Shown in pieces: positions 1,425 to 57,783 of a stretch of 64,000 nucleotides of DNA (within the stretch, counting starts at the first letter, position 1; each line of letters begins with the position of its first letter). The position numbers and the translations under genes are program-made. This DNA comes from Pseudomonas antarctica. Its GTDB lineage: Bacteria > Pseudomonadota > Gammaproteobacteria > Pseudomonadales > Pseudomonadaceae. The notes under the pieces were generated by a model, which was not told the origin of the DNA, did no database searches, and saw nothing but the letters and a program-made list of their open reading frames with translations. The DNA lies in NCBI RefSeq assembly GCF_001647715.1, contig NZ_CP015600.1:2604001-2668000 (forward strand). The letters run 5' to 3'.

Positions 1425-2281
1425 GTACATATCCGTTGCTGCGGTAACGGCGGCTTAGGGTTCCGCCCTTACGGCGGGTCACTTTTTTACAAAGCGCCTA
1501 AAAAAGTAACCAAAAAACGCTTTGCCCCACCACTCGGTGCCTCGCCTGGGCTCGGCATGCCCGCACTCCGGCTTGAATCCGTGGGCCGCCGCAATGGGCC
1601 ATCCCTGGCCCAGTGCGGCTAACCCGGCGTCCTGCCGGGTTACCCACGGATTCAAGCCTGCGTTCGGCCATCGTGGTTAACGGGGCCTGTCAGATCAAGA
1701 TCAACAGCAGAGCACGGCGGCCTGAAAGCCGACCTGAGTGGTTGAAGCAAAAGCAGGGCAACAGCACAGCAACACCACTTTTACCGGGTGAATTGAGTTC
1801 CAAATGTGGGAGCGGGCTTGCTCGCGAATGCGGTGTGTCAGTCAACTCATTTGTAACTGACACACCGCATTCGCGAGCAAGCCCGCTCCCACATTTGATT
1901 GGGTTCAGCTTCCAAGATCAGGTCGGCTGTCAGGCCGCCTCGGTTTTGCTTTTGATCTAACCACTCAGGTCGGCTACCAGGCCGCCGTGCTCTGCTTTTG
2001 ATCTTGATCTGCTGTTGATCTTAGGCGCCCCGTTAACCACGCTGGCCGAACGCAGGCTTTGGAGCGTGGGTAAACCGGCAGGACGCCGGTTTAGCCGCGA
2101 TGGGCCAAGGATGGCCCATGGCGGCGGCCCACGGTCCAAAGCCTGCGTGAGGGCACACCGAGCCTAGGCGAGGTGCCGAGTGGTGGGGCAAGAGCCCTTT
2201 GGTTACTTTGGGGCTTTTCCAAAGTGACCCGCCGTAAGGGCGGAACCCATGTCAGCCGTAACCCAAACAACGGATATGTAC
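1425..2281. repeat. Long structured inverted-repeat element, copy 1
   Basis: This fills the whole convergent gap between the FMN reductase and poxB. The left arm starts GTACATATCCGTTG (1425) and the right arm ends with CAACGGATATGTAC (2281). Reversed, the right arm (about 1997-2281) tracks the left arm (1425-1710) for roughly 285 bp with many substitutions, including the blocks GGTTCCGCCCTTACGGCGGG, CCCCACCACTCGG and GGTTAACGGGGC. Within the left arm, CTTGAATCCGTGGG (from 1572) pairs with CCCACGGATTCAAG, and nested stems AACCCGGC/GCCGGGTT and TGGGCCA/TGGCCCA lie inside it. Arms at 21511 and 25817 are nearly identical in sequence. A REPIN sits in the centre. ORFs inside are products of the repeat. 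Confidence 0.85.
1801..1897. repeat. REPIN with perfect 42-bp arms
   Basis: Positions 1801-1842 and 1856-1897 are exact reverse complements, 42 bp each, around a 13-base loop. The arm contains the P. fluorescens REP core TGTGGGAGCGGGCTTGCTCG. Two REPs in head-to-head order are the usual mobile unit (REPIN), moved in trans by RAYT transposases; none is encoded in the window. Perfect arms suggest recent insertion or repair against each other. Confidence 0.92.
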
Positions 2282-19197: not shown

Positions 19198-21492
19198 ATG
19201 CCGTATCGCATCATCGTCAGCCTTGCACTTTTGCTGATTGGCACCACTACGCAGGCCCAAGATCCCGCCCCGGCGATTTCCTACACCCGTGACATTCAAC
19301 CGATTTTTACCGAGAAGTGCGTGGCGTGCCATGCCTGCTATGACTCGGCCTGCCAGTTGAACCTGGGCAGCGGCGAAGGCGCGGCCCGGGGCGCGACCAA
19401 AGTGCCGGTCTACGACGGTGAGCGCAGCCAGGCAACCAAGCCGGTCCGGCTGTTCTATGACGCCTTCGGTAAAGCCGCCTGGCAGCGCGAAGGCTTCAGC
19501 TCGGTACTTGATGCCCAGGGCAGCCAGGCCGCGCTGATGGCGCGCATGTTGGAGTTGGGCCACCGTCGTGCGCCCTTGCAGCCCAATGGCAAATTGCCTG
19601 AAGACATCGTGCTGGGCCTGAACCGCGAAAACATGTGCCCGTCGCCAGGTGAATTCGACGCCTACGCCGGCGCACACCCCAATGAGGGCATGCCGCTGGC
19701 CGTCACCGGCTTGAGTGACCAGCAATACCAGACCCTGCAACGCTGGCTGGCCTCCGGTGCGCCGATCGATGAGCAAGGCGTGGCGCCGAGTGCCCAGGAA
19801 GCCGCGCAGGTGCTGCAGTGGGAAAACCTGCTCAACGCCCCCGGCGCCCGCCAAAGCCTGGTGGCGCGCTGGCTGTACGAACACCTGTTTATTGCGCATC
19901 TTTATTTCGAGGGCGGCGAACCCGGGCATTTCTTTCAGTGGGTACGCTCACGTACCCCCAGCGGCCAGCCGATTGACCTGATCAACACCCGCCGCCCCAA
20001 CGACGACCCCGGCACTCGGGTGTACTACCGCCTGTGGCCGGTACAAGGGGTGATCGTGCATAAAACCCACATCACCTATCCTCTCAGTGCGCAGAAAATG
20101 GCACGGGTCAAATCCCTGTTCTACAGCGGTGATTGGCAGGTCACCGCGTCGCCGGGCTACGGCCCCGGGCGCCGTGCCAACCCATTCGAGACCTTCGAGG
20201 CGATCCCGGCGCAGGCGCGTTACCAGTTCATGCTGGACAACGCCGAGTATTTTGTACGCACTTTTATTCGTGGCCCGGTGTGCCGCGGGCAGATTGCCAC
20301 GGACGTGATCCGCGACAACTTCTGGGCGCTGTTTCAGGCGCCGGATCACGATCTGTACATCACCGATGCCCGCTATCGCGGCCAGGCGACGCCGTTGCTG
20401 GCGATGCCGGGGCAGAATGATGACGTGGGCAGTGTGCTCAGCCTGTGGCTCAAGTACCGCGACAAGCGCAACCAGTACGAAGCCCTGCGTCGGGACAGTT
20501 ATGCCGACCTGCCGGCGCCAAGCTGGTCAACCCTGTGGGCCGGCAATGACAATGCGCTGTTGAGCATCTTCCGCCACTTTGACAGTGCCTCGGTCAATAA
20601 AGGCCTGATCGGTGAAGTCCCGCAGACGATGTGGTTGTTCGATTACCCGTTGCTGGAGCGCACCTACTACCAACTGGTGGTCAACTTTGACGTGTTCGGC
20701 AATGTCTCGCACCAGGCCCAGACCCGGCTCTACTTCGACCTGATCCGCAATGGTGCCGAGCAGAATTTCCTGCGCCTGATGCCGGCCGATACCCGCGACG
20801 ACTTTATGGACGATTGGTACCAGAACAGCGGGAAACTCAAGCTCTGGCTGGACTACGAGGCGATTGACGATGACACGCCGAGTGGGTTGCATCTGGATAA
20901 GAAGGACCCGAAGCGCGATTTTGCCAATCAGTTATTGACGCGTTATGGCGATTTGAACGCCAGTCCGGACCCGATCAACCGTTGTGCCGGTGCCTATTGC
21001 TCGCGCGATGGGATTGATCCGGCGTTGCGGGATGCGGAGCAGGCCCTCAGTCGCCTCACGTCGAGGCCGGCGGCGGGGCTCAAGGTGATTGAGCAACTGC
21101 CTGAGGCCACTATGTTGCGGATCGAGACCGCCAGCGGCAAGCGGGTGGTTTACAGCATGTTGCGTAACCGGGCGCACAGTAATGTGGCGTTTTTGCTGGG
21201 TGAGGCTTATCGCTATCAGCCGGGGCTGGATACTGTGACCATTTATCCAGGGGTGCTGAGCAGTTATCCGAACTTCATTTTCAATATTCCGGCGCAGGAG
21301 GTGCCGGGGTTTGTTTTGGCGATGGAGAGTGCCAGGGATGCTCAGCAGTTTGAGAAGATTGTTGATCGGTGGGGTGTGCGGCGCAGTCATCCGCTGTTTT
21401 GGCAGTATTTCCACGACTTGTCGCGGTATGTTCTGGAGACTACGCCGGTTGAGGCGGGGGTGTTGGATATGAATCGGTATGAGAATTTGTGA
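19198..21492 (+). CDS. cti: Cis-trans fatty acid isomerase
   Basis: A 764-residue periplasmic c-type cytochrome-like enzyme that converts cis to trans double bonds in membrane phospholipid acyl chains, a rapid response of Pseudomonas to solvents and heat. Residues 1-20 are a signal peptide (hydrophobic IIVSLALLLIG, cleavage near TQAQ). The heme-c site CVACH at about residues 41-45 is followed directly by ACYDSACQL, typical of Cti. The rest is the long Cti-specific region, including YPLLERTYYQLVVNFDVFGN. Divergent from metH across a 143-bp gap. The copy-2 repeat element starts 18 bp after its stop. Confidence 0.93.
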   Translation: MPYRIIVSLALLLIGTTTQAQDPAPAISYTRDIQPIFTEKCVACHACYDSACQLNLGSGEGAARGATKVPVYDGERSQATKPVRLFYDAFGKAAWQREGFSSVLDAQGSQAALMARMLELGHRRAPLQPNGKLPEDIVLGLNRENMCPSPGEFDAYAGAHPNEGMPLAVTGLSDQQYQTLQRWLASGAPIDEQGVAPSAQEAAQVLQWENLLNAPGARQSLVARWLYEHLFIAHLYFEGGEPGHFFQWVRSRTPSGQPIDLINTRRPNDDPGTRVYYRLWPVQGVIVHKTHITYPLSAQKMARVKSLFYSGDWQVTASPGYGPGRRANPFETFEAIPAQARYQFMLDNAEYFVRTFIRGPVCRGQIATDVIRDNFWALFQAPDHDLYITDARYRGQATPLLAMPGQNDDVGSVLSLWLKYRDKRNQYEALRRDSYADLPAPSWSTLWAGNDNALLSIFRHFDSASVNKGLIGEVPQTMWLFDYPLLERTYYQLVVNFDVFGNVSHQAQTRLYFDLIRNGAEQNFLRLMPADTRDDFMDDWYQNSGKLKLWLDYEAIDDDTPSGLHLDKKDPKRDFANQLLTRYGDLNASPDPINRCAGAYCSRDGIDPALRDAEQALSRLTSRPAAGLKVIEQLPEATMLRIETASGKRVVYSMLRNRAHSNVAFLLGEAYRYQPGLDTVTIYPGVLSSYPNFIFNIPAQEVPGFVLAMESARDAQQFEKIVDRWGVRRSHPLFWQYFHDLSRYVLETTPVEAGVLDMNRYENL

Positions 21493-21510
21493 TTTGTGAT
21501 TTGTGTGGGG

Positions 21511-22457
21511 GTACATATCCGTTGCTGCGGTAACGGCGGCTTAGGGTTCCGCCCTTACGGCGGGTCACTTTTTTACAAAGCGCCTAAAAAAGTAACCAAA
21601 AAACGCTTTGCCCCACCACTCGGTGCCTCGCCTGGGCTCGGCATGCCCGCACTCCGGCTTGAATCCGTGGGCCGCCGCAATGGGCCATCCCTGGCCCAGT
21701 GCGGCTAACCCGGCGTCCTGCCGGGTTACCCACGGATTCAAGCCTGCGTTCGGCCAGCGTGGTTAACGGGGCCTGTCAGATCAAAATCAAAAGCAGAGCA
21801 CGGCGGCCTGAAAGCCGACCTGAGTGGTTGAAGCAAAAGCAGGGCAAAAGCACAGCGGAAGCAGAACTGCTTTTCTGTGGGAGCTGGCTTGCCTGCGATG
21901 CAAGCACCTCGGTACATCAGGCATACCCAGCTGATGCCATCGCAGCGGTTCGGCGGTCCGACAAGCCAGCCCCACATTGACCGAGTACAGCCTGAAGAGC
22001 AGCACACTCTCTGCCTGATGTACTGAGTTCAAAATGTGGTTAACGGGGCCTGTCAGATCAAGATCAACAGCAGATCAAAAGCAGAGCACGGCGGCCTGGT
22101 AGCCGACCTGAGTGGTAGAAGCGAAGGCAGGGCAAAAGCACAGCAGAAGCAGAACTGCTTTTCTGTGGGAGCTGGCTTGCCTGCGATGCAGGCACCTCGG
22201 TCCACCAAGTACACCGAGCTGATGCCATCGCAGCGGTTCGGCGGTCCGACAAGCCAGCCCCACATTGACCGAGTACAGCCTGAAGAGCAGCACACTCTCT
22301 GCCTGATGTACTGAGTTCCAAATGTGTGTGAACTAATTTGTAAACCATGTGGGTGAGTCATACCGGCAAGAGCCCTGCTTACGTTGGGGCTTTTCCAAAG
22401 TGAGTCGCCGTAAGGGCGAAACCATAGGCCGCCGTTACCGAAGAAACGGATAGGTAC
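21511..22457. repeat. Long structured inverted-repeat element, copy 2
   Basis: Same family as copy 1: it starts GTACATATCCGTTG, and the first 260 or so bases are nearly base-for-base those of 1425-1690. The right end (22384-22457) is the degraded inverse, with GTCGCCGTAAGGGCG and CGCCGTTACC, ending GGATAGGTAC. The interior differs from copy 1: it holds a 277-bp tandem duplication with a TGTGGGAGCTGGCTTGCCTG REP variant in each half. It occupies nearly all of the cti-nfuA gap; only the last 107 bp before nfuA are outside it. Confidence 0.82.
21759..22320. repeat. 277-bp tandem duplication inside repeat copy 2
   Basis: Units 21759-22035 and 22036 to about 22320 both begin GTGGTTAACGGGGCCTGTCA and both end GATGTACTGAGTTC plus a short tail. 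Each contains a REP pair (TGTGGGAGCTGGCTTGCCTG and, inverted, GGACAAGCCAGCCCCACA-like). The units differ mainly by point changes and a short AGATCAA insertion in the second unit. Confidence 0.85.
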
Positions 22458-25461: not shown

Positions 25462-25570
25462 GGCGCGTCCCTTCTGGGTGTCAGGGTGGAACGAGCGCAT
25501 GAAAACCCCGCGAGCCAGGCACGCAGAGTTTTAAACAGCGCCCGCCCACCGCGGGTTTGTTATCTGATTT

Positions 25571-25757
25571 TTTCGGGCCGGTCTCCGGGCTTGCGAGGGG
25601 GCTCTTGAACTAGAGTCCTGAAAGCATCGCCTTCCCATACCCGAGGGCACAGTGGCTGTGACGCTTCGCTCGCTTACCGTTGCGGGGGCAGCACCGGACT
25701 GGTCATGCACGCATGATTTACCGGTTTCCCGTTTCACCCTGTGAAGGGCACCCGAAA
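25571..25757 (-). ncRNA. Cobalamin riboswitch upstream of cbtBA-cobE-cobM
   Basis: Read on the minus strand: the closing stem P1 TTTCGGG (25757-25751) pairs with CCCGAAA (25577-25571), then the GGGTGAAACGGGAAACCGGT block, the B12 box GCTGCCCCCGCAACGGTAA (25692-25674), and the 3' element AAGCCCGGAGACCGG. About 110 bp remain to cbtB. There AAACCCGCG can pair with downstream CGCGGGGTTTT, a possible terminator/antiterminator. Adenosylcobalamin binding should switch the genes off. Confidence 0.92.
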
Positions 25758-25816
25758 CAAGGTGTGTAGGAGAGCATGGGGGTGGGAGGGGAGTCAATTG
25801 GGGTTTTTTGGTGGGT

Positions 25817-26506
25817 GTACATATCCGTTGCTGCGGTAACGGCGGCTTAGGGTTCCGCCCTTACGGCGGGTCACCTTTTTTACAAACGCCTAAAAAAGTA
25901 ACCAAAAAACGCTTTGCCCCACCACTCGGTACCTCGCCCAGGCTCGGTATGCCCGCACTCCGGCTTGAATCCGTGGGCCGCCGCAATGGGCCATCCCTGG
26001 CCCAGTGCGGCTAACCCGGCGTCCTGCCGGGTTACCCACGGATTCAAGCCTGCGTTCGGCCATCGTGGTTAACGGGGCCTGTGAGATCAAGGTCAACAGC
26101 AGAGCACGGCGGCCTAGTAGCCGACCTGAGTGGTAGAAGCAAAAGCAGGGCAAAAACACGGCAACAACAGAACTGCTTTTCTGTGGGAGCTGGCTTGCCT
26201 GCGATGGCATCAACTGTGTGTCACTGACAGACCGAGATGTCTACATTGCAGGCAAGGCAGTCCCCACATTTGAATGCGTTCAGCGTCCAGGTTCAGGTCA
26301 GCTGCTAGGCCGCCGAACTCCGCTGTTGAGCTTTTTGATCTTAGGCGGCCCACTTAGGAATGCCGGAGGACGGGCACACCGAGCCTGGGCGAGGTGTCGA
26401 GTGGTGGGGTACTTTTGGTTGAGCCGGCATTTCGGGCCCTTTTCCAAAAGCGACCTGCCGTAAAGGCGGAACCTAAGCCGCCGTTACCGCAGCAACGGCT
26501 ATGTAC
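25817..26506. repeat. Long structured inverted-repeat element, copy 3
   Basis: Starts GTACATATCCGTTG (25817) and runs almost identically to the left arms of copies 1 and 2 to about 26130. The right arm is shortened to about 200 bp and is the most degraded inside, but its tip (26455-26506) is the best preserved inverse of the three: CTAAGCCGCCGTTACCGCAG then CAACGGCTATGTAC. The core holds a diverged REP pair (about 26182-26275). The element occupies the space between two divergent cobalamin riboswitches. Confidence 0.82.
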
Positions 26507-26564
26507 ATCAACCAAACAACCCCATCATTGACCATCCCCCACGCACTGCGTAGCCTTGCACCTT

Positions 26565-26735
26565 CGAGGTTCTTCGGCCCAGGTCGAAGCTAAGAAGGGA
26601 ACGCGGTTCAAGCCGCGGCTGCCCCCGCAACTGTGAAGGGTTCATCTGACTGCCACGCCACTGCCAATACGGCGGGAAGGCGCAGCCAGCGCCGGTCGTA
26701 AGACCCGCATGCCCCAAGCCAGGAGACCTGCCTCG
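26565..26735 (+). ncRNA. Cobalamin riboswitch upstream of cobW-cobN
   Basis: P1 CGAGG (26565-26569) pairs with CCTCG (26731-26735). Inside are AAGAAGGGAACGCGGTT, the B12 box GCTGCCCCCGCAACTGTGAA (from about 26618) and the 3' element AAGCCAGGAGACCTGCC. Ligand binding is expected to repress cobW and the genes behind it when cobalamin is plentiful. Confidence 0.95.
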
Positions 26736-26820
26736 TAACCGATTTTCTACTTCAACCGGGCGGGGTGATCCGGTGACGAAATCAGCTTCTGCGCATTTGC
26801 CGCAGGGCCTGTCGTCCCGT

Positions 26821-33542: not shown

Positions 33543-57783
<24,241 letters not shown>

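Follow-up and report, generated by a model that had tools for sequence, protein, structure and literature searches.

The TwoAYGGAY RNA (RF01731) was described in 2010 as a candidate motif of unknown role, with representatives in gamma-proteobacteria, Clostridiales and the human gut (PMC2864571), and CsrA binding was proposed for it in 2014 on the basis of motif matches (PMC4333381). The CsrA/RsmA consensus is given as RUACARGGAUGU, displayed in short hairpin loops, and in Pseudomonas putida KT2440 the proteins RsmA, RsmE and RsmI all enrich intergenic sequences that adjoin ISPpu8 or resemble the ISPpu8 flanks; one target of all three is a ‘long palindromic region downstream PP_3547’ (PMC7937890). 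Dispersed repeats have been catalogued in the P. fluorescens group, among them R200 (320 bp, 47 in SBW25) and R178 (101 bp; PMC2718517 Table 3). The RNA motif, the CsrA prediction for it, the intergenic repeats of P. fluorescens and the palindromic REPINs are all already known; in the open-access literature searched we found no report of a TwoAYGGAY RNA as part of a mobile palindrome.

Here, we analyze a 64,000-nucleotide stretch of the Pseudomonas antarctica genome (NZ_CP015600.1, positions 2,604,001 to 2,668,000; hereafter the window), and conclude that three long inverted-repeat elements within it (1425-2281, 21511-22457 and 25817-26506) are probably non-autonomous, MITE-like mobile palindromes whose arms encode a putative Rsm-binding RNA. 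All three begin with GTACATATCCGTT and carry an imperfect inverse of GTACATATCCGTT at the far end, and their left arms are near-identical, with copy 2 at 99% and copy 3 at 97% identity to the 286-base arm of copy 1. These features had been recognized in the initial annotation, the nested stems of which were all found, together with a core holding REP-type sequences; in copy 1 the sequence of the core contains a REPIN-like inverted pair at 1806-1892, the two members of which we take to be REPs. None of the three copies fully contains an ORF of 120 aa or longer. As suspected, they belong to a dispersed repeat family with further genomic copies: a search of the P. antarctica genome, which comprises 6.6 Mb in three contigs, yielded at least 50 matches to the 286-base arm, with scores computed for 40 of the 59 first-look candidates. 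The elements are thus non-coding, have terminal inverted repeats and are present in many copies, as MITEs are. Arm matches occur in 33 of 57 genomes (P. antarctica included) and in two of 22 genera, and a plasmid collection searched with the arm gave no match. Elsewhere in the window, the plus strand of 33543-57787 carries a pair of neighboring giant ORFs (4303 and 3778 aa), which are, judged by length only, of non-ribosomal peptide synthetase size.

Copy 1 (1425..2281) is a complete two-arm palindromic element with GTACATATCCGTT ends, comprising a 286-bp L-type arm (1425..1710, plus strand) and a 267-bp R-type arm (2015..2281, minus strand). When the arms of the genome were scored against these two, they separated into two groups. 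The L group contains 21 arms that are 91-100% identical to the copy 1 L arm; the R group contains 13 full arms, with copy 1 R as the reference, ten of the other 12 at 93-98% identity to it and two near 89%. Full R arms share about 75-83% identity with L, and are somewhat more varied among themselves (mean pairwise identity 0.932, n=13) than the L arms (0.959, n=21). One more truncated R-type arm was found at C1 ~4,483,760 while PF01609 loci were being checked. Within the window, a full R arm survives in copy 1 alone. Copy 2 (21511..22457) has a full L arm, a duplicated REP-bearing core and only the outer 93 bp of the R arm (22365..22457, minus strand), which is 82% identical to R positions 1-95. 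Copy 3 (25817..26506) has a full L arm and a right arm that is short and decayed (26344..26506, minus strand; identity about 75% with L 1-166 and 73% with R 1-159). The shortening attributed to the copy 3 arm therefore holds for the right arm (26344-26506), whereas the left arm (25817-26102) is full length. The apparent drift of the right arms arises because L and R differ and because R has suffered deletions, with 93 bases left in copy 2 and a decayed 163 in copy 3; the deletions in some copies came later. The earlier view of one arm held near-identical while the other decays was thus mostly wrong, since L and R are two types that are each conserved across loci, and we therefore reject arm-specific decay or gene conversion and find no support for arm-specific selection.

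The accompanying guess that the arm is a structured RNA or a protein-binding site was largely right, with a match to RF01731 and covarying stems both supporting a structured RNA. Relative to a gathering score of 43 bits for the Rfam covariance model, the copy 1 L arm scores 50.2 bits at 1563..1665 (minus strand) and the copy 1 R arm 45.9 bits at 2043..2155 (plus strand), both reading outward; the L arms of copy 2 (21649..21751) and copy 3 (25955..26057) each score 50.2 bits on the minus strand. The core of this RNA is a closing stem enclosing two tandem hairpins. From sequence and predicted fold, hairpin 1 of the copy 1 L arm has the loop AGGAC (1629..1633, minus strand; closed as CAGGACG) and hairpin 2 the hexaloop AGGGAU with CC/GG closure (1601..1606, minus strand), an Rsm-type site; the corresponding loops of the R arm are AGGAC (2080..2084, plus strand) and AAGGAU (2107..2112, plus strand). 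Compared with the two terminal AYGGAY loops of the family, the window arms read AGGAC in hairpin 1 and A[A/G]GGAU in hairpin 2. The P. antarctica genome contains at least 34 RF01731 matches, 30 of them over the cut-off, and 14 control genomes contain none, among the 150 of 234 candidates that were scored. Across 95 genomes, P. antarctica included, a search with strict filters – which makes the counts a lower bound – found a match in 36 and one over the cut-off in 31; within the genus Pseudomonas, 32 of 59 genomes have one.

The stems passed the covariation test that the initial annotation had proposed. Twenty-seven cores were aligned, two of them window cores and the other 25 taken from as many other genomes. 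Pairing holds for 94.7% of cells, and 12 of 18 pairs have changed on both sides; there are 51 double-change cells, against 12.3 +/- 2.6 in shuffled alignments, and none of 500 shuffles was as high. Control structures slid along the alignment gave at most 49% pairing. The set derives from 30 cores, from which three identical to retained rows (L083, L084 and L088) and one of another family with different geometry (L086) were dropped; L080, a core with no GGA in loop 2, was brought in. Because the RF01731 model favors GGA-containing loops, retention of GGA was re-tallied on 33 loci picked by DNA similarity alone (51 arms, 27 distinct), where it is present in loop 1 of 26/27 and in loop 2 of 27/27 distinct arms; a larger set, some of whose loci had been found by means of the RNA model, gave 34/35 and 35/35. 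Among 152 distinct related cores AUGGAU is the commonest loop (110/152 for loop 1 and 116/152 for loop 2), in a search whose pattern demands GGA. Departures within otherwise-paired helices of these cores comprise 29 G-U and 6 A-C on the sense strand, although support from this asymmetry is limited because the copies are related and the excess depends on the conditioning: unconditioned counts of G-U versus A-C in relatives are 22 vs 4, 5 vs 6 and 16 vs 25 for the three helices, an excess in hairpin 1 only. Within the genome, constraint on the core is weak in the L arms (5/63 vs 39/223 variable columns, p 0.075), and the R arms show no difference (14/63 vs 50/204).

Hairpin 2 of both copy 1 arms presents ANGGAN in a hairpin loop, as expected of a CsrA/Rsm site, and reads CC-A[A/G]GGAU-GG across the arms; hairpin 1 in this genome holds its GGA in a five-base AGGAC loop (C-AGGAC-G), short of the ideal ANGGAN. 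The genome has three CsrA-family matches. Each intact arm, if read on its outward strand, would yield a TwoAYGGAY RNA with GGA loops in the form bound by the CsrA family (RsmA/RsmE/RsmI), and the double hairpin of such an outward transcript would be expected to bind an Rsm dimer; of the mechanisms considered, presentation of the double hairpin to an Rsm dimer by an outward transcript is the best supported. Its abundance would then decide whether the RNA works as a small sponge or gives the neighboring gene an Rsm-responsive 3′ untranslated region. We infer that the arm strand is transcribed, that Rsm binds the arm RNA, and that the binding matters to the cell or to the element. The recovery of palindromes with Rsm proteins in P. 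putida is suggestive of such binding, and the ISPpu8-associated class resembles the present elements in that a long intergenic palindrome and IS flanks appear in Rsm pull-downs, the palindromes being likened by description only (PMC7937890).

The resemblance to RF01731 extends to a score over the gathering cut-off, tandem GGA-loop hairpins and covarying stems, whereas the listed TwoAYGGAY RNAs differ from those described here, which are arms of a multi-copy mobile palindrome, often form diverging pairs, and in this genome have a five-base hairpin-1 loop. The titrating small RNAs CsrB, RsmX, RsmY and RsmZ likewise have GGA in hairpin loops and predicted Rsm binding, although those known to titrate Rsm proteins have more sites and are single genes, whereas the present family has two hairpins per arm and tens of dispersed copies. 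Genes of the RsmY/RsmZ type also have their own promoter with a GacA box. No sigma-70-like promoter was found in 1400-2300 and no GacA-type box near the window copies, the sole match in the window being at 36040 with 3 mismatches to what we take to be the GacA box consensus; the RsmY/RsmZ arrangement was thus not seen in these scans. A full-length transcript is predicted to form one giant L:R hairpin in which the GGA loops are hidden (-675 kcal/mol, vs -444 when pairing may span no more than 200 bases), and a core-to-end transcript is predicted to retain the motif. The loops would therefore be exposed only by core-to-end transcripts, by solo-arm copies, or by co-transcriptional folding.

The alternative with the strongest claim is that the repeat simply is the catalogued P. 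fluorescens family R200, with R178 as its outer end, and nothing more. Both families are dispersed and intergenic, their sizes and copy numbers fit (PMC2718517 Table 3), and the matches in many relatives are confined to roughly the outermost 90-100 bases of the arm. We regard this identity as a tentative possibility of some weight. The comparison is one of size and count alone, and an identity with R200 would be compatible with an Rsm-binding role for the arms; in the available portion of the Silby 2009 description (PMC2718517), neither an RNA motif nor an Rsm site is reported for either family.

That these elements have moved is indicated by the empty site of copy 1, the flanks of which are contiguous in three of 56 relatives (G004, G030 and G031); in a further relative, G017, both flanks match and lie ~1.6 kb apart. 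Many copies outside the window run ~60 bases further than those within it, to CATAGGTATCTAC (CATAGG) ends. Seven of eight such tailed copies with both ends have a 10-bp target duplication of REP sequence, with 7-10 of 10 bases matching, and the eighth, at 178204, has none (1 of 10 bases). Over all eight the mean is 7.62 matching bases vs 4.04 when flanks are cross-paired (108/40320 permutations), an effect seen at length 10 only; for the seven without 178204 it is 8.57 vs 3.83 (6/5040 permutations). This compares with the 11-bp duplications of ISPpu8, an IS4-family element (PMC3056050). The window copies are bounded by GTAC and lack CATAGG ends, and no direct duplication was found at GTAC-bounded copies pooled with those of relatives. 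Their flanks, in the window for example 1400-1424, 21486-21510 and 25792-25816, are G+T rich toward the element (81% over the 20 bases next to it and ~60% beyond 60 bases; 47 flanks), and complementarity between left and right flanks is weak (7.57 vs 6.93, p 0.049, 23 GTAC-bounded copies), the p value having been 5e-5 before three tailed-looking copies of G073 were removed. Some of the G+T flanks are short tandem repeats that look G-quadruplex-capable and vary by locus.

The CATAGG ends are separable from the arms, because they also bound MITEs of 211-231 bases with no arm match in G073 and G061 (L335, L337 and L340); 79 ends in G073 lie within 3 mismatches, and exact 10-bp duplications are present at two of the copies of this MITE that were viewed. 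G103 carries a 549-base single-arm element that has CATAGGTATCTAC ends and contains RF01731. A search of the P. antarctica genome for an autonomous partner covered eight DDE_Tnp_1 (PF01609) loci, none of which has a match to the arm, or an end with 0-1 mismatch, within ~1.5 kb; one (L297) has a single CATAGG-like end match with 2 mismatches. Two other candidates were set aside: a 3.1-kb CATAGG-ended pair in G073 resolves into two separate MITEs, one of 231 and one of 211 bases, on either side of other ORFs, and in the Rhodanobacter locus L225, considered as an arm-flanked transposase, none of the listed ORFs was recognized as a transposase. In G010 (L149) two arms lie 1.6 kb apart with an IS110-family transposase ORF between them. 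On the 135-kb replicon C2 (55500-59500; L097), an IS110-type transposase gene (PF01548) interrupts an arm where its TwoAYGGAY core borders the rest.

The chromosomal copies are also oriented relative to replication. With landmarks provided by an exact dif match at 3,263,238, dnaA at 554-2074 and a GC skew that, in the stretches sampled, switches sign somewhere from 3.22 to 3.40 Mb, the L arm points with the fork in 24 of the 25 copies that can be oriented by arm type among 27 chromosomal copies, a count that omits two ambiguous copies (2,857,668 and 3,878,735) and the C2 copy. The sole exception is a solo R arm at 2,091,197, and the later-found R-type fragment also agrees. Position-blind clustering of two-arm copies gave 11/11 in P. 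antarctica and 13/14 in G017, for which the origin was assumed to be the point opposite dif; the G017 figure is limited to two-arm copies because 3 of 4 solo arms there run opposite to the rule. No rule emerged from the 3 copies of G010 or the 5 of G073, which were too few or mixed. The bias fits either fork-coupled insertion or selection by orientation. The C2 replicon has a dif-like site with two mismatches at 94801-94824.

These observations bear on a second alternative, that the structure exists for mobility only, as DNA hairpins for a transposase, with the likeness to Rsm sites incidental or ancestral. The family does share with REPINs and RAYT-mobilized REPs a palindromic form, REP pairs in the core and at target sites, and a genome with Y1-transposase matches, five of which exceed the cut-off (one with an internal stop). 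However, REPINs are mobile units with REPs at both ends, and here the REPs are in the core or constitute the target, neither of the end sequences, GTACATATCC or CATAGGTATCTAC, is a REP, and the element is several times larger. The fork-following orientation (24/25, 11/11, and 13/14 in G017) would be expected from single-strand transposition, and the GTAC-bounded copies without direct duplication and the two of three helices that lack a G-U preference in unconditioned counts point the same way; the 10-bp duplication of the tailed copies, by contrast, is typical of a cut-and-paste enzyme, and neither G010 nor G073 follows the orientation rule. Moreover, DNA hairpins have no need of GGA kept in the loops of one strand, and the same RNA family is present in Clostridia and other genera, so that we consider an explanation by mobility alone unlikely. 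Separately, C1 227000-236500 contains three consecutive Y1-transposase matches, one with an internal stop; the first and second are separated by a match to a DDE transposase.

Least probable of all, and in our judgment very unlikely, is that the elements are bidirectional terminators plus repeat debris, with hairpins that are harmless or useful for ending transcription between convergent genes, as might be suggested by the tail-to-tail bias of the P. fluorescens repeats (Silby 2009, PMC2718517), by the context of 27 copies in P. antarctica (14 between convergent genes, 10 tandem and 3 divergent, from rough gene calls and as raw counts without a genome baseline) and by three terminator-like sites in 1400-2300 vs 1.3 +/- 1.1 in shuffles, one of them just inside the left end at 1462-1478, but this leaves the covariation and the kept GGA loops unexplained, and copy 3 is located between two divergent riboswitch leaders. 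These leaders are cobalamin riboswitches at 25559-25770 (minus strand) and 26550-26749 (plus strand), which diverge with copy 3 between them; downstream of them lie a gene for a CbtA-type cobalt transporter and the pair cobW-cobN.

The preferred reading – mobile palindromes with putative Rsm-binding arms – raises the question of how widely this geometry recurs. In the window the sense RNAs face outward from the element center. A scan for the perfect double AUGGAU motif gave at least 119 stretches, from which 80 named loci with 88 matches were analyzed. Among the matches listed, an inverted partner lies no more than 1.6 kb away for 32 of the 88 (28 loci), and for 31 of these 32 it is on the upstream side of the sense RNA; the exception, L221 of P. 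guariconensis, points inward, as do pairs in G078. RF01731 was found in 9 of 24 scanned sources and was absent from 15, five Luteimonas records being among the 15, and outside Pseudomonas 4 of 18 scanned double-loop loci reach the RF01731 cut-off. In one Ruminiclostridium MAG, a pair of RF01731 matches diverges inside a 114-nt inverted repeat of 70% identity, and single matches occur in one Lachnospiraceae, one Lysobacter and one Glaciecola record. Scans of viral contigs found 18 and 2 stretches. A broader proposal can be framed, in which a palindrome with two outward Rsm decoys is a general, cross-phylum vehicle for TwoAYGGAY, the sponge sites gained as it multiplies shift the Gac/Rsm switch of the host, and its insertion in line with replication reflects fork coupling; taken as a whole, we think this somewhat unlikely.

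A mobile palindrome gives the TwoAYGGAY RNA a genomic home, and makes the Rsm idea testable in laboratory pseudomonads. It also offers a possible reason why palindromes flanking transposons appear in the P. putida Rsm pull-down. A jumping element may in this way spread spare docking sites for RsmA/RsmE, one of several master switches of the cell, and if the sites work, selfish DNA would change the target dose for a global regulator.
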